DNA of 64,000 nt from a virus. A program made the position numbers and the translations under genes. The notes below the pieces were generated by a model, which searched no databases, had not been told where the DNA came from, and worked only from the letters and a program-made list of their open reading frames with translations. The stretch spans positions 23,686 through 87,685 of the IMG/VR virus record IMGVR_UViG_3300044675_005584, one strand, 5' to 3'. Every line of letters starts with the position of its first letter. The first letter of the stretch is position 1. This document shows positions 12,795 to 47,383 of the stretch, piece by piece.

Positions 12795-12822
12795 TTCAGG
12801 ACCAATTAGTTTAAAAACCCAC

Positions 12823-12828
12823 TAAATA
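12823..12828 (+). promoter_or_regulatory. TAAATA late-type box
   Basis: TAAATA lies 20 nt before the ATG at 12849 in the 54-nt gap after the helicase gene. It marks the change from replication genes to the virion-like block. Confidence 0.45.
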
Positions 12829-12848
12829 ATACAAAGGTCCTGACCCGT

Positions 12849-13097
12849 ATGCAAAAGAAAACCCGTAGTATTCTCGAAGAATTAGAAACCTTGTACGCCG
12901 AGCGTGATCAGCGTCATGTGATCGAAAATCGTGCCGCAAACATCATTGCCAGTGCCATACGCCTGCTTGAGCAAATAGATAGTAGTTACACAGCTGAACA
13001 GGCTGAAAACCTACAGCGCAAGTTGATCAATGCTATCAAACTGAGAGATCCTGCTAAATTTACAAGAACAGTGAGACGTACTGATGCAAATACATGA
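12849..13097 (+). CDS. Conserved small helical phage protein
   Basis: This 82-aa protein begins KKTRSILEELETLYAERD and continues through NRAANIIASAIRLLEQI to RDPAKFTR. I recognise it as a conserved unnamed T4-like phage protein. It is almost fully helical and charged, with no membrane segment. It opens the late-type block and overlaps the next gene by 14 nt. A structural or prohead role is suggested only by position. Confidence 0.7.
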   Translation: MQKKTRSILEELETLYAERDQRHVIENRAANIIASAIRLLEQIDSSYTAEQAENLQRKLINAIKLRDPAKFTRTVRRTDANT

Positions 13098-41195: not shown

Positions 41196-41239
41196 TATAA
41201 TAAATACTAATACGAATGCCGCAACATGGGTTCGTATTA
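41196..41239 (+). promoter_or_regulatory. hsp20 promoter with 5'-terminal hairpin
   Basis: TATAAT (41196-41201), overlapping TAAATA (41201-41206), is followed at the expected transcription start by a 9-bp stem: TAATACGAA (41208-41216) with TTCGTATTA (41231-41239). The AAAGGAG of hsp20 lies after the hairpin. The -35 region is weak. Confidence 0.6.
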
Positions 41240-41267
41240 TGTCACTTGCTTAACAAAGGAGAAAACA

Positions 41268-41708: not shown

Positions 41709-41750
41709 TATAATAGTGTAAATACAGTAGAGGGCTTGACTCTCTACTGT
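41709..41750 (+). promoter_or_regulatory. clpS promoter with 5'-terminal hairpin
   Basis: TATAAT (41709-41714) and TAAATA (41719-41724) are followed by a 9-bp stem: ACAGTAGAG (41724-41732) with CTCTACTGT (41742-41750). AAAGGA then precedes the clpS ATG. The design repeats that of hsp20. Confidence 0.55.
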
Positions 41751-41778
41751 TACACAAAACCATGTTAAAGGAAATACA

Positions 41779-42087: not shown

Positions 42088-42872
42088 AATTCAACTGTAA
42101 TTCTTTTGGGATAATAGGCCTGCTGGCACCATTCGGTTTGTCCTCTACCGCGACAGTTATTAACGTATCTTACTCCGTTACGATCACGATCTACACCCTT
42201 ATGGTAGTGACCAAAGCACCAGACCTTGATCTTGTGTTCAGTATCTTCATCTAGGGCAATATCCACATGGCTATTGCCCATGGTATTGTAACGATAATGA
42301 TCGGACAACTCAATGTCATGAGACACAATCCAGGCACCTGGCACTGTGTGAGTGACCAATACTATGGCCTTTACTTCTTGATGAGTCTGTAATTTACGCA
42401 CACTACGCACCAGGTATGCAGCATCATGTAAGGCCATGGTAGAAATATTTTCTACTGTGTTTTTGTCCAGGCCATAGTGATCCTGCAACCAAGACTGTGT
42501 TTGTTCTAGATCTATGTTGGGATCAAAATCATAAGTCCACCAACCGTTAGTGGCCAATATAGCCACACCATTGATTACTGCCACACTGTTATGCATATAC
42601 ACCACATTGGGCACAGCAGATACGGCAGCTGAGAGATCTTGATAGCTTTGTCCTATGTTGTCTAAACACCAGCGATGTTCATCATTGCCATCAATATAAA
42701 ACACTGCCTGGTAACATGATCCCAGATGTGTGAGAAATTCTTGTGTACGCACAAGATCGCGACTGATATCACCTGCTACCACACAGTAAGGACTGGTAGC
42801 CTGTCCGGTCCAGTCTAAGGAATCCCAGGTCTCAACGTGCAAGTCAGAAATTAAATCAAAGGCAAAAGTCAT
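42084..42872 (-). CDS. Calcineurin-like metallophosphoesterase
   Basis: This protein of about 262 aa has the metallophosphoesterase signature in order: SDLHVE, VVAGDIS, IDGNDEHR, VLVTHTVP and CFGHYHKG. The substrate may be a nucleotide, nucleic acid or phosphoprotein. Two adjacent ATG codons exist (42875 and 42872); the second is 12 nt from the first base of a minus-strand TAAATA box, matching the leaderless spacing seen elsewhere. It is one of the few minus-strand genes. Confidence 0.88.
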   Translation of the reverse strand: MTFAFDLISDLHVETWDSLDWTGQATSPYCVVAGDISRDLVRTQEFLTHLGSCYQAVFYIDGNDEHRWCLDNIGQSYQDLSAAVSAVPNVVYMHNSVAVINGVAILATNGWWTYDFDPNIDLEQTQSWLQDHYGLDKNTVENISTMALHDAAYLVRSVRKLQTHQEVKAIVLVTHTVPGAWIVSHDIELSDHYRYNTMGNSHVDIALDEDTEHKIKVWCFGHYHKGVDRDRNGVRYVNNCRGRGQTEWCQQAYYPKRITVEF

Positions 42873-42878
42873 CATACA

Positions 42879-42884
42879 TATTTA
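42879..42884 (-). promoter_or_regulatory. TAAATA late-type box (minus strand), leaderless arrangement
   Basis: On the minus strand TAAATA is followed by 6 nt and the ATG at 42872. The same short gap serves the plus-strand gene at 42897 with AAAGGA. Confidence 0.45.
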
Positions 42885-42896
42885 AAAGGAATTTAC

Positions 42897-43259
42897 ATGA
42901 ACATAATATTTGGAAGCCACTTAATTGATGAAATTGCCACCAAGTACACTGTGCTAGAGCTTGACACTATCCGACTGATGCCAGACGACGTCGAAAGCAC
43001 AGCTTACTGTGTGGTAGAAAAAATACCAATGTTTGAACTGGATCAGTTGCATGTTCTCAAACAGTTACACGATGACATGATAAACTCTTACAAAAATCGC
43101 AAATGGGGAGCCTGCGCTGACGCAGCACAGACACTGAAGGGTGCATGGGGTACTGAACTTGATAGTTTTTATGATATCATGCTGTCCCGTGTAAGACAAT
43201 ATCTGGTGCAAGAGCCTGACTCTAGCTGGTCTCCAGTGATAGAAAAGAACCAGTCTTAA
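42897..43259 (+). CDS. Conserved phage protein of unknown function
   Basis: This 120-aa soluble protein contains SHLIDEIATKYTVLELDTIRL and WGACADAAQTLKGAWGTELDSFYDIM. It looks conserved among T4-like phages but has no known domain. AAAGGAA precedes the ATG. It lies directly upstream of the curli-like operon but lacks a signal peptide and so is not likely part of secretion; it is not a CsgE. Confidence 0.65.
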   Translation: MNIIFGSHLIDEIATKYTVLELDTIRLMPDDVESTAYCVVEKIPMFELDQLHVLKQLHDDMINSYKNRKWGACADAAQTLKGAWGTELDSFYDIMLSRVRQYLVQEPDSSWSPVIEKNQS

Positions 43260-43273
43260 ACTGCTGTGTAATG

Positions 43274-43312
43274 CTCTAACCTAGTCCTGTTAAATAATAA
43301 TAGGAGTTAGAG
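43274..43312 (+). promoter_or_regulatory. RBS-hiding hairpin with late-type box in its loop (csgF leader)
   Basis: CTCTAAC (43274-43280) pairs with GTTAGAG (43306-43312), and TCCT (43285-43288) can pair with AGGA (43302-43305), covering the Shine-Dalgarno TAGGAG of csgF. The loop holds TAAATA (43291-43296). RNA started from this box (about 43302) would lack the left arm and leave the site open, as in the known T4 lysozyme-type control. Confidence 0.6.
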
Positions 43313-43313
43313 T

Positions 43314-43769
43314 ATGAATAAAAAATATAAAAATATACTCTCAATCGGTGTCCTGACCTGGGTACCCTTCGTATTGGCTTCGCCGATTGCAGATTACACA
43401 TTCAAAAGCCCCAGTTTTAACGGCTCGGGCTACAGCAGCCATACTCTCACGATCGAAAATCAAGAAACCACTCGAAGACAACAAGTGGCCAAGGATATCG
43501 AAGCAAAACTACAGGCAACAGCCGCCGCTGCAAACAATACAAATATTGCCAAGTTTATGAACAACTTGGAAAGTCGTATCTACGCACAGATAAGCCAGAA
43601 TCTGGCCACTGCCATGTTTGCCACAGGTGGTAGCACCAGCGGCTCATTGAACTTTGAAGGCAACACGATATTTTATTCCAAGGATGCTGGCAATGTATAT
43701 CTCACAGTGACTGACAATGTGGGCAATCAAACACGGGTCACTATTCCCCTGGGACAGTTCCAATTCTAA
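43314..43769 (+). CDS. csgF: Curli assembly factor CsgF
   Basis: This 151-aa protein has a signal peptide (to about residue 22, VPFVLAS) and the CsgF pattern: YTFKSPSFNGSG right after cleavage (the part of E. coli CsgF that plugs into the CsgG pore), a helix FMNNLESRIYAQISQNLA, and a C-terminal strand pair VYLTVTDNVGNQTRVTIPLG. CsgF couples curlin export to surface nucleation. It is the first gene of a five-gene operon and is followed 1 nt later by csgG. Confidence 0.88.
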   Translation: MNKKYKNILSIGVLTWVPFVLASPIADYTFKSPSFNGSGYSSHTLTIENQETTRRQQVAKDIEAKLQATAAAANNTNIAKFMNNLESRIYAQISQNLATAMFATGGSTSGSLNFEGNTIFYSKDAGNVYLTVTDNVGNQTRVTIPLGQFQF

Positions 43770-43770
43770 C

Positions 43771-44889
43771 ATGAAAACATTGCTAATTTTATTTGTTGTC
43801 TCCTTGTTGACAGCCTGTGCAGTGGGTCAAAAGGCCGGCATGGAATATCGTCCTGAACCAGTACCAAACAAGATGCAGAAAGAATTTGACGCTATACCAG
43901 CTCCAGATGGTCGCAAGCTCAGTGTGGCTGTTTATAGTTTTGGAGACAAGACTGGACAGCGTAAACCCACGGCTGGTATTGCCAGCCTGAGCATGGCAGT
44001 CACGCAAGGCGCCGAAGTGTTCCTAATCAAGGCCCTACAGGATGTTGGTCATGGACAATGGTTTGATGTGGTTGAGCGTATCAATGTAGATGCCCTAACC
44101 AAAGAGCGTTTAATTATTAGACAGATGCGAGAAGCCTATGAAGGGGCCAATGCCAAACCGCTCATGCCCATGCAGTTTGCCGGCATCATAATGGAAGGTG
44201 GCATAATTGGCTATGACTCTGGCACAGAATCAGGTGGAGCCGCACACAGGTTCCTGGGCATAGGGTCACAGACACAATACAGCAAAGACACTGTGACAGT
44301 GAGTTTACGGGCCATAAGCGTGAATACTGGAAAAGTATTGGCCGCAGTACACGTGACCAAAATAGTTTACAGCACAGCAGACAGCGTGGCTGTGCTAAAA
44401 TTCTTGGCCAATGGCGTGCAGGCATTCGAAGCCGAAGCTGGGCTGACTATAAACGAACCCGGAACCATGGCAGTCAAGGCCACAATCGAAGCCGCAGTAG
44501 TAGAACTGATCAAGGAAGGTGAGCGCAAAGGTATATGGGATTATCGCAAGCCAGAAGCAACAAAAGCACCACCGCCGGCGACAGCACCTGCTCCAGTTGT
44601 GACAGCACCACCGGTAGTGACAACACCAGAGTTCAGTTGGGGCAACGAACCAAATGGCCCTGAGTTTGTGTGGAAAGAACCCGCCAAACAAAAGATGTAT
44701 TTTTTAGCCGACACCCGGGTGTATAAAAAGAAATCCAATTTAAAAGGACCTGTGTATGGATCATTTGTTGTGGCCAAAGCCAATACACCAGTTGAAATTG
44801 TTGAAACAGAATTCCCAGATGTGGTAACCGTAACAACCGACTCAGGCATCCGGGGATTTGTTAAAAGGGAAAGATTAAAAACAAAATGA
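43771..44889 (+). CDS. csgG: Curli secretion channel lipoprotein CsgG, with C-terminal extension
   Basis: This 372-aa protein has a lipobox LTAC (C16) and the whole CsgG core: APDGRKLSVAVYSFGDKTGQ, ITxxR-like RLIIRQMRE, IIMEGGIIGYDSGTESGGAAHRFLG-like channel strand, and GIWDYR. In E. coli, nine copies form the outer-membrane curli pore. The constriction loop differs (no Tyr or Phe equivalent after TGQRKP), so the pore may be wider. About 95 extra C-terminal residues have a Pro-rich linker and an SH3-like part (YGSFVVAKANTPVEIVE). The next gene overlaps by 4 nt. Confidence 0.92.
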   Translation: MKTLLILFVVSLLTACAVGQKAGMEYRPEPVPNKMQKEFDAIPAPDGRKLSVAVYSFGDKTGQRKPTAGIASLSMAVTQGAEVFLIKALQDVGHGQWFDVVERINVDALTKERLIIRQMREAYEGANAKPLMPMQFAGIIMEGGIIGYDSGTESGGAAHRFLGIGSQTQYSKDTVTVSLRAISVNTGKVLAAVHVTKIVYSTADSVAVLKFLANGVQAFEAEAGLTINEPGTMAVKATIEAAVVELIKEGERKGIWDYRKPEATKAPPPATAPAPVVTAPPVVTTPEFSWGNEPNGPEFVWKEPAKQKMYFLADTRVYKKKSNLKGPVYGSFVVAKANTPVEIVETEFPDVVTVTTDSGIRGFVKRERLKTK

Positions 44890-45680
44890 AAAACCACTTA
44901 TTCAAAATAACAATGGCCATACTTGCCGTGTTATCCATCGCAACGCAGGCCGCTGATAACAGTATCTATATTGATCAGGCCGGTGATAACGCTGTTATCT
45001 CAGTTACACAAGACGGAGCAGGCAACGTGGTGCGTGGCATACAAGGCGTGGGTACTGGTAACACTACAGCAGCACGGATACAAGGTGATGGCAATCAGGT
45101 CACTGTGAGCCAGATTGGTAGTGGCAATACCTTGAACCTGGGAGTGAATACTACCACAGCCGCCGGTGTGGCCAATGGCAATCGTTTCACGTATAGTGTG
45201 ACAGGTAACACAGCCACTGCCACGATCAACAGCAATCAAGGCGGTGCTGGAGTCAGTGCCAGCAACATAGTATCCGTAACACAGAGCGGAAATACTGCCA
45301 ATACCAACATCAATGTGCTGGGCACAACCAACACCATTACAGCAACCACGGCAGGTGGCGCAAACAACAGCGTGGTATCCACGGTAAGCGGTACAAGCAA
45401 TACAGAAACCATATCCATGACTGGTGGTGCTGGAAACACTTCTACCATAACGCAGACTGGCACATTGGGCAAAGCCACCATAACCAGTGTGGGTGCTACC
45501 AATACCTATACTGTTTCACAAAGCGGTGGCGGCACAGCTGGACACACCACCGTGATTGATGCCACCGGATCGGGCAATACTGCCAGTGTGACACAGGCTG
45601 GCACATCGGGTGACAGCGTGGCAAATCTCAAAAGTGTAGGATCTGGTAACACCTTTACAGTGAACTCAAATACCAAGTAA
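44886..45680 (+). CDS. Curlin-repeat amyloid subunit (CsgA/CsgB-like)
   Basis: This 264-aa protein has a signal peptide ending ATQAADNS. Curlin-type repeats follow: NSIYIDQAGDNAVISVTQDG, NQVTVSQIGSGN, and many shorter Asn/Gly/Thr/Gln-rich strand-turn units with SGNT or GAGNT turns up to the C-terminus. Nearly all charge is absent after residue 80, as expected for an amyloid fibre. It should be exported by the neighbouring CsgG. It is coupled to csgG by ATGA. Confidence 0.85.
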   Translation: MKNHLFKITMAILAVLSIATQAADNSIYIDQAGDNAVISVTQDGAGNVVRGIQGVGTGNTTAARIQGDGNQVTVSQIGSGNTLNLGVNTTTAAGVANGNRFTYSVTGNTATATINSNQGGAGVSASNIVSVTQSGNTANTNINVLGTTNTITATTAGGANNSVVSTVSGTSNTETISMTGGAGNTSTITQTGTLGKATITSVGATNTYTVSQSGGGTAGHTTVIDATGSGNTASVTQAGTSGDSVANLKSVGSGNTFTVNSNTK

Positions 45681-45683
45681 AAA

Positions 45684-46820
45684 ATGTCAACAATCTATTA
45701 TAAAAGGAGACCTAAATGGACGGACGTATTATGCGCACTCTTGCTGAGCTTATCGCAGAACACCATCGCCGAAATTGGCAAAATAACAGAACAGATCAAT
45801 ACTCAGCCTTTGATACAACGGTCAGCCACGACCTTGACGGGGACATCGGGTATGGCAGTAGAGATGTTGGACGCGATCCGGACCACTCGGGGCAAGGTGG
45901 GGATAACTTTCCAGGATAACACTCGAGTACAGGTAAACGAAAACAGTCGTTTGGTCATAGACGACTTTGTTTACAATCCCAGATCTGGCACTGGTAAATT
46001 GGCACTCAACATGGCTTCGGGCACAGTGAGATATGCATCAGGACAGATTGCCAAAAACGATCCACAACGGGTGGCTATTAATACTCCTACTGCCACTATT
46101 GCAGTGCGTGGTACAGACTTTAGTGCCACAGTAGATGAATTGGGTGGTAGCACGATCATATTGTTGCCCAGTTGTCCTGCAGGATTCCGTGATGTGGCCC
46201 GTGATTGTAAAACTGGCGCAATTGAAGTGATCACCGATGCTGGCAAGGTAGTGTTGGATCAGGCTTTCCAGGCTACTCGAGTCGACACTCGCGGAATCAT
46301 GCCACTCAAACCGGTCATACTCAAAATAGGAGAAGACGCTATCAACAATATGCTGATTGTGAGTCCTCCACGTCAGCTAGATCGAAATGCCGACAAGACA
46401 CAGCTTAGAACTGAAGCAAAGGGCGCATTGGATGTGGACTTTTTGAAAGAAACAGGTTTGATAAATGCGCTTGAAGCCCAGGAGCAAGAACTATTCAAGG
46501 ACACCATAAGTCGTAACTTTTTAGATCAAAATTTCTTGGCAAACATCTTGGACATAATTGATGCGCAAATGGCCGCACAATTGGATCTATTAAAATCGAC
46601 CAAGTCTGGTCTATTACCAGATTACAACGCTGTGTCTGGTATTGTGGCCGCAGTTGACGACAACACAGTGACACTCAGCAGAGACAATGGTAGCGACATA
46701 CAAAGTGTCACAACACCCCTACGACAGGCCAGTACCATTTACCAAACCCAAGGACCCTTAGAGTTCAAGAACCGTGTGAATACCGGTGGCACAACAATTA
46801 TCACTCTAATACAAAAATGA
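45684..46820 (+). CDS. Secreted FecR-domain protein of the curli-like operon
   Basis: This 378-aa protein has a basic N-terminus and hydrophobic core (VLCALLLSLSQ, cut after about NTIA). A FecR domain follows: MLDAIRTTRGKVGITFQDNT, ENSRLVIDDFVY, then INTPTATIAVRGTDFSA. The C-terminal half is helical and may anchor or cross-link fibres. FecR-like proteins often pair with curlin or adhesin genes in proteobacteria. The start has no ribosome site, whereas AAAAGGAG stands 24 nt inside, before an out-of-frame ATG (45716). A small indel or recoding should be considered. Confidence 0.75.
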   Translation: MSTIYYKRRPKWTDVLCALLLSLSQNTIAEIGKITEQINTQPLIQRSATTLTGTSGMAVEMLDAIRTTRGKVGITFQDNTRVQVNENSRLVIDDFVYNPRSGTGKLALNMASGTVRYASGQIAKNDPQRVAINTPTATIAVRGTDFSATVDELGGSTIILLPSCPAGFRDVARDCKTGAIEVITDAGKVVLDQAFQATRVDTRGIMPLKPVILKIGEDAINNMLIVSPPRQLDRNADKTQLRTEAKGALDVDFLKETGLINALEAQEQELFKDTISRNFLDQNFLANILDIIDAQMAAQLDLLKSTKSGLLPDYNAVSGIVAAVDDNTVTLSRDNGSDIQSVTTPLRQASTIYQTQGPLEFKNRVNTGGTTIITLIQK

Positions 46821-47383
46821 AATACCTGTTATTTTTCTTCCTGTGTTCATCGGCTTGGGCCGCGGATAACTCGATAGTGATAGATCAGATCGGTGACAAT
46901 AATACTGTGGTGATCACGCAAGATGGCACAGCACACTCAGTGAATGTGACCATGGGCACTGTGTCGTCAGCGGACAACAACTCAATTGCAATCACGCAAC
47001 AAGGTACTGGAGCAAAAACAGTCGCAGTAGAACTACGAGCAGGAATCAATAATGGTGTGATAATCACACAAGATGGAGGAGGAGCACATGTCAGCAACAT
47101 ACAAAATCTTAATGGTAATGCTAACAACATTACTATTGGCCAAAGCGGTAATGCTAATCACAACTTTACTATTGTAGGCGGAGCAGGCACAGTCAACGGC
47201 GGTAACACTATCACAGCCACACAGTCTGGTGCTGCAGACAAAGCATTCACATTAAACTTGAATTCAACATCAGGTGCTGGAGTAACAGTTCAACAGACCA
47301 ATCCTGGGCAAGCCAATACAGGAAACATGAGCATCTCATGTGCGGCTGGAACTTGTGGAAATTATTCTTACATACGTCCTTGA
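46817..47383 (+). CDS. Second curlin-repeat protein (CsgB-like)
   Basis: This 188-aa protein has a short signal peptide (FFFLCSSAWA) and clear curlin repeats: NSIVIDQIGDNNTVVITQDG, NNSIAITQQGTG, NNGVIITQDGGG, NNITIGQSGNAN. It differs from the first subunit by a C-terminal Cys pair (SISCAAGTCGNY). It may act as the nucleator (CsgB role) or as a minor subunit. It overlaps the FecR gene by ATGA and ends the operon. Confidence 0.85.
   Translation: MKYLLFFFLCSSAWAADNSIVIDQIGDNNTVVITQDGTAHSVNVTMGTVSSADNNSIAITQQGTGAKTVAVELRAGINNGVIITQDGGGAHVSNIQNLNGNANNITIGQSGNANHNFTIVGGAGTVNGGNTITATQSGAADKAFTLNLNSTSGAGVTVQQTNPGQANTGNMSISCAAGTCGNYSYIRP

Follow-up and report, generated by a model that had tools for sequence, protein, structure and literature searches.

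The csgF gene of this viral sequence raises the question of why TAAATA, the core of the T4-type late promoter motif, stands at the top of a hairpin that covers the ribosome-binding site of a curli gene. The window, i.e. the whole stretch of 64,000 nucleotides analysed here, spans bases 23686-87685 of a virus record that is 87,685 bases long. An initial annotation had described the csgF leader as a late promoter enclosed in a hairpin that hides the ribosome site, and the analysis presented below indicates that this leader is probably a late-opening translation lock. The record is part of a T4-related phage. It carries UvsX, UvsY, a DnaB-type helicase, a tail sheath and a tail tube, and its large terminase is nearest to those of Pseudomonas jumbo phages such as PA5oct (53% identity).

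The gene csgF is the first of a five-gene operon, csgF-csgG-curlin-FecR-curlin, and all five genes have Pfam matches above curated cut-offs (Table 1). The tight spacing of stops and starts (43769/43771, 44889/44886 and 46820/46817) suggests that a lock on csgF could reach the later genes by translational coupling. A 120-aa ORF precedes csgF in the same direction, and the gene before that ORF is on the minus strand. Of 71 loci, 66 have a co-directional ORF as the nearest one found upstream, 4 have an opposite one and 1 has none; the C-terminal sequences of these ORFs differ in kind from locus to locus, so the leader goes with csgF and not with the neighbouring gene. In the portions available of two papers on phage curli (PMC9004378; PMC7029224), csgF and csgG are described, csgA and csgB are regarded as missing, and late promoters could not be predicted in one case. 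Two curlin-repeat genes adjoin csgF and csgG here, and the record of the Methylophilales phage Melnitz EXVC044M also annotates two, though csgA and csgB are reported as lacking in the parts available of the same papers (PMC7029224; PMC9004378).

Table 1. Features of the csgF leader and of the curli operon (window coordinates)
Feature	Position	Strand	Basis and remarks
Upstream co-directional ORF, 120 aa	42897-43259	+	Possible read-through source; no Pfam or PHROG match
TGTAAT	43267-43272	+	Leader alignment; counterpart of the TTAA-like element of relatives
Outer 5' arm ATGCTCTAAC	43271-43280	+	Fold; would be missing from RNA begun at about 43302
4-nt bulge	43281-43284		Fold
Inner 5' arm TCCTGTTA	43285-43292	+	Fold; partner of the Shine-Dalgarno stretch
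TAAATA, core of T4-type late promoter motif, hairpin top	43291-43296	+	Sequence; kept in 39/53 distinct csgF leaders
Loop	43293-43297		Fold
Inner 3' arm TAATAGGA	43298-43305	+	Fold
Predicted late transcription start	43302	+	Inferred from TAAATA position and T4 spacing
csgF Shine-Dalgarno AGGAG	43302-43306	+	Sequence; pairing with left arm
Outer 3' arm GTTAGAGTAT	43306-43315	+	Fold; start-codon A and T lie in it
csgF	43314-43769	+	PF10614, E 6.3e-12, 46.2 bits (curated cut-off 25.8)
csgG	43771-44889	+	PF03783, E 1.8e-43; starts 1 nt past the csgF stop
Curlin-repeat protein	44886-45680	+	PF07012; start overlaps the csgG stop
FecR-domain protein	45684-46820	+	PF04773
Second curlin-repeat protein	46817-47383	+	PF07012; start overlaps the stop of the FecR gene

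The computed fold of the leader is an 18-pair hairpin at 43271-43315, whose pairing takes in the csgF Shine-Dalgarno site together with a part of the start codon. Indeed, all five bases of AGGAG are paired opposite the left arm, and two bases of the ATG (43314-43316) are included in the hairpin. Folding of 43260-43330 with and without the left arm, which the initial annotation had proposed as a check, gave an energy of -19.6 kcal/mol for the long form (z -4.9), and none of 200 shuffled sequences was equally stable; when the 30 nt to the left of TAAATA alone were shuffled, z was -3.7 and none of 300 shuffles reached the stability of the window leader. The pairing of CTCTAAC (43274-43280) with GTTAGAG (43306-43312) had been placed at the right coordinates, both segments lying inside the outer arms, and TCCT (43285-43288) does stand opposite AGGA (43302-43305). 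The hairpin had been assigned to 43274-43312, an extent that holds for the core pairing and falls short of the real fold, which is longer and takes in the two bases of the ATG. Likewise, TAAATA had been placed in the loop, which is right for its last four bases, whereas the first two (43291-43292) are paired in the stem. Rfam 15 gave no match at gathering score within the window, no T run follows the stem, and no plus-strand terminator-like site was found at the hairpin. An intrinsic terminator at this position was rejected, the stem having no T run. No plus-strand sigma-70-like promoter was found in 42800-43400.

The lock would work as follows. RNA read through from upstream would keep the left arm and fold into the hairpin, with the Shine-Dalgarno site hidden, the start codon partly so, and csgF barely translated. 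A T4-type late promoter, with its TAAATA core at the hairpin top, would produce RNA begun at about 43302, a position which we take from the T4 spacing to be 11 nt after the T of TAAATA; this RNA would be without the left arm, the site would be exposed and csgF would be translated late. Translational coupling may spread the lock to the whole operon, and the biological reason could be that an outer-membrane pore and amyloid are withheld until progeny have been made.

Conservation of TAAATA was assessed in two sets of relatives. The first set consisted of 70 csgF loci from a scan of viral contigs, which together with the window gave 58 distinct leaders by 60-nt identity. TAAATA is found within 45 nt of the csgF start in 42 of these 58 leaders and is absent from that interval in the other 16. 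With automatic gene calls, 39 of 53 distinct csgF leaders carry it at most 45 nt before the start, versus 20 of 411 other genes (Fisher p 4e-30), one of these 20 (L038:2953) being itself a csgF leader called with another start. The second set came from three profile scans, with 80 matches each listed of 339, 294 and 294 relatives (232 loci, many of them on contigs already seen); 37 leaders among the matches listed were kept, each separated by more than 15 differences in 60 bases from all leaders of the first set and from the other leaders kept. Among these listed matches, TAAATA is present within 45 nt in 23 of the 37 leaders, and the 14 without it include coding-end-like overlaps of the upstream gene as well as L216, in which TAAATA is 53 nt away. 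In five leaders (L003, L160, L205, L215 and L233), only 11-15 nt separate TAAATA from the chosen csgF start, an arrangement that would yield a leaderless or nearly leaderless late RNA.

The two arms of the hairpin vary together. In the arm-swap test, each left arm (20 nt before TAAATA) was folded with every right part and 20000 permutations were drawn, relatedness among leaders being ignored; the 38 leaders used were the 40 non-redundant TAAATA-bearing leaders minus L003 and L046, in which TAAATA precedes the start by 11 and 46 nt, respectively. Own arms gave a mean gain of -11.03 kcal/mol versus -5.90 kcal/mol for swapped arms, and none of the 20000 permutations was as good, neither over the 38 leaders nor within spacing groups of 12, 8 and 16 leaders. 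The second set, among the matches listed, gave the same picture (23 leaders, -9.97 kcal/mol for own arms versus -4.49 kcal/mol permuted, 0/20000). A smaller excess was obtained for 43 TAAATA leaders of other genes (-4.19 versus -3.28, z -3.2, 39/20000 as good); in a set of 34 leaders of this kind, 9 were individually below p 0.05. Taken singly against shuffles of their left flank, 22/42 csgF leaders of the first set and 11/23 of the second had p < 0.05. For 7 of the 38 discovery leaders, the leader's own arm falls into the worse half of the ranking, and 12 of the 38 were not scored as locks, namely 8 in which fewer than three bases of the Shine-Dalgarno match pair with the left arm and 4 without a Shine-Dalgarno match. 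Pairs were tabulated per right-arm position and not per MAFFT column, because bulges shift the arms in the MAFFT alignment; in these tables, pairs of the types C-G, T-A, G-C, A-T and G-U exchange at the same positions. Co-variation of the arms around a constant TAAATA, which the design put forward in the initial annotation predicts, is seen in both sets and not in every leader.

Furthermore, the predicted accessibility of the ribosome site differs between the two forms of RNA. The energy needed to open the stretch from the Shine-Dalgarno site through the start codon was computed for a long RNA with 120 nt of upstream sequence and for RNA beginning 11 nt after the T of TAAATA; 61 leaders were examined, 51 of which have a recognised Shine-Dalgarno site downstream of TAAATA. 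Over these 51 leaders, the mean opening cost is 12.3 kcal/mol in the long RNA and 5.5 kcal/mol from the predicted late start, and opening is easier by at least 3 kcal/mol in the predicted late RNA in 41 of them. At least three Shine-Dalgarno bases are paired with the left arm in 40/51. In the window, the cost falls from 15.5 to 6.8 kcal/mol once the left arm is missing, as the initial annotation had supposed; the Shine-Dalgarno site would then be at the very 5' end of the predicted late RNA, with the start codon still paired with downstream sequence.

The same data bear on the other explanations of the hairpin, the foremost of which is a translation damper or regulator site that is always present and is opened by a protein, a small RNA, temperature or upstream translation, TAAATA being incidental. 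Such a hairpin would act on any long RNA, and a co-directional ORF ends 37-114 nt before csgF in most loci. In addition, inspection by eye of L028, L034, L038, L039 and L051 revealed a TAAATA hairpin with its own AGGAG followed by a second possible stem (CTACTACC or similar versus GGTAG) over the chosen csgF site, which lies downstream of the TAAATA hairpin and would persist in late RNA. This explanation is nevertheless improbable: TAAATA is constant at the hairpin top while both arms vary (the 40 aligned leaders were, however, picked for TAAATA), the unconserved arm sequence speaks against a sequence-specific binder, and in the L009 group, in which csgF overlaps the upstream gene, TAAATA is absent within 45 nt. 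It is very unlikely that the arms form a DNA operator, i.e. a palindrome for a repressor over the promoter with no RNA lock. They do lie on either side of the promoter core, and their self-complementarity holds for DNA as well, but their sequence and length vary between phages and the right arm lies over the ribosome site in 40 of the 51 leaders. Moreover, of the 61 leaders, 41 have a better fold on the sense strand than on the reverse complement, 18 a worse one and 2 an equal one (p 0.0024), a bias that tolerance of G-U pairs would produce and that favours selection of the structure as RNA over a DNA palindrome. Intergenic hairpins are common, yet a chance hairpin or a processing or termination signal of the upstream gene is a very improbable source of this one, given the 0/200 shuffles as stable, the 0/20000 permutations in both sets and the lack of a T run after the stem, of a plus-strand terminator-like site and of an Rfam match at gathering score. 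The late-opening lock is retained as the preferred reading.

This reading requires that TAAATA act as a promoter core. In the window, TAAATA occurs 39 times (42 expected) and the full TATAAATA twice (2.85 expected); the use of either count as promoter evidence was rejected, both motifs being at chance frequency. The motif alone is therefore no evidence, whereas its position before genes and its conservation before csgF are. TATAAATA, which is seen for gene e, is the T4 late promoter consensus; the putative promoter of the window reads GTTAAATA, with only the TAAATA core present, and it is doubtful that the full TATAAATA is a defining feature of a T4-type lock. In the whole record, TAAATA lies at most 45 nt before 15 of the 111 called genes, csgF included, which makes it the commonest of its 15 anagrams (mean 5.1 and highest 10 for the other 14; 2 for the reverse complement TATTTA). 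In stretches of two related records, it precedes 6/34 genes (G001; other anagrams mean 2.4, highest 5) and 8/30 genes (G003; mean 1.8, highest 4), and in all three records the tail sheath and tail tube genes, as named by PHROGs, are preceded by it. Among 411 non-csgF genes near csgF in 70 loci, no enrichment of TAAATA was found (20 versus an anagram mean of 18.1 and a highest count of 27; 8 for TATTTA). It was consequently rejected as a general signal before the neighbours of csgF in these loci, not being above its anagrams.

The aligned leaders have in common a TTAA-like element, placed about 17-18 nt ahead of TAAATA, and an A+T-rich stretch at -35 to -31 from TAAATA, and the arm between the TTAA-like element and TAAATA is free in sequence over the 40 aligned leaders. 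The spacing resembles that of a two-element promoter; to our knowledge, T4 late promoters have no -35 element. TTAAT-16/18-TAAATA was rejected as a genome-wide promoter class, with 15 matches (3 of them csgF leaders) versus 11 for a reversed control in 10 records, so the TTAA element is so far a feature of csgF leaders. One TTAAT-17-TAAATA (G006:C1:125085, L091) is found some 4 kb downstream of csgF, ahead of an ORF that begins with MNKLIKALIASF and whose product looks secreted.

Late sigma factors were searched for in the same records. The gp55-type families (phrog_234 and phrog_12791) match 8 of 31 records, mostly large ones, namely G003, G004 and six records of more than 229 kb (G001, G020, G021, G022, G023 and G024); no match was found in G002 (266 kb) or G026 (228.8 kb). 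The phrog_12791 matches in G001, G003, G020, G021, G022 and G024 lie in open frames of 300-323 aa, and the T4-type phrog_234 has 181 positions. The gp33 family matched 1/20 records. In the 87.7-kb fragment that contains the window, neither gp55 nor gp33 families gave a match, and tblastn of Melnitz gp55, gp33 and gp45 gave no convincing one.

A broader proposal, which we put forward tentatively, is that T4-related uncultivated phages, a wide group with some records above 200 kb, might carry the curli operon as a self-timed cassette. A bipartite late promoter (TTAA, 17-18 nt, TAAATA) with the anti-ribosome-site arm between its elements would join promoter and lock in one module and hold back the amyloid pore and fibre until progeny have been produced, as T4 delays its lysozyme; in the window, this operon would include the curlin subunits.

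Comparison with known systems places the csgF leader close to a T4 design. The initial annotation was correct in citing T4 gene e and a few others as precedents, according to the portions available of PMC3014915 and PMC2988022. In these portions, a structure lowers lysozyme synthesis from gene e 100-fold and the late RNA is without its 5' portion; e and I-TevI have this lock design, soc, 49 and others have site-hiding structures, and similar arrangements of promoter and hairpin occur at I-TevII, I-TevIII, segB and Aeh1 mobE (PMC3014915; PMC2988022). As in gene e, where per the available text the site is sequestered in a longer early RNA and free in RNA from late promoters near the 5' strand of the structure (PMC3014915), the csgF site would be closed in one RNA and open in the other; here, however, the gene is csgF of a curli operon, the window has only the TAAATA core, the arms vary widely among phages and the case is known from sequence alone. 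The T4 genes I-TevI, I-TevII, I-TevIII and segB and Aeh1 mobE share a late promoter placed so that late RNA loses part of the site-hiding hairpin, as far as the available part of PMC2988022 describes them, but encode homing endonucleases, in contrast to the secretion and amyloid operon found here. In phage Melnitz, the genes stand in the same order (csgF, csgG, curlin repeat, FecR, curlin repeat) and csgF is 39% identical to that of the window, whereas the Melnitz csgF and an upstream gene overlap, and the first TAAATA found upstream of this csgF lies at a distance of 618 nt. In brief, the Shine-Dalgarno site and start codon are in a helix of the long RNA (predicted), the promoter core lies between the 5' arm and the ribosome site (sequence), and the full TATAAATA is absent; the csgF leader would thus fit the lock of T4 e and I-TevI in the sequence features tested except the full TATAAATA, and csgF would be a new kind of locked gene. 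No description of a csgF leader lock was found in the open literature searched, nor in the portions available of the phage curli papers (PMC9004378; PMC7029224).

The roles proposed for phage curli in the available parts of these papers are an uptake pore, a lysis timer and a fibre for 'sibling capture' (PMC7029224; PMC9004378). A recurring lock of the T4 lysozyme type suggests that mistimed expression is costly and that the curli proteins act late, and the timing of phage curli genes becomes directly testable. Through co-variation, a mechanism known from few T4-like genes would be extended to a group of uncultivated phages.

Other TAAATA hairpins are present in the window. At 12796-12851, TAAATA (12823) is in the loop of a perfect 8-pair stem, TCAGGACC/GGTCCTGA (z about -3). 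The right arm of this stem covers the GG of the AAAGG that precedes an ORF of 82 aa (12849-13097), which has no Pfam match; this hairpin is possibly another lock. At 41719-41778 and 41201-41267, TAAATA also precedes a ClpS gene (PF02617) and an Hsp20 gene, respectively, and is directly followed by strong stems, CAGTAGAG...CTCTACTG and TAATACGAA...TTCGTATTA, respectively, which would be located near the start of the late RNA and not over the ribosome site.
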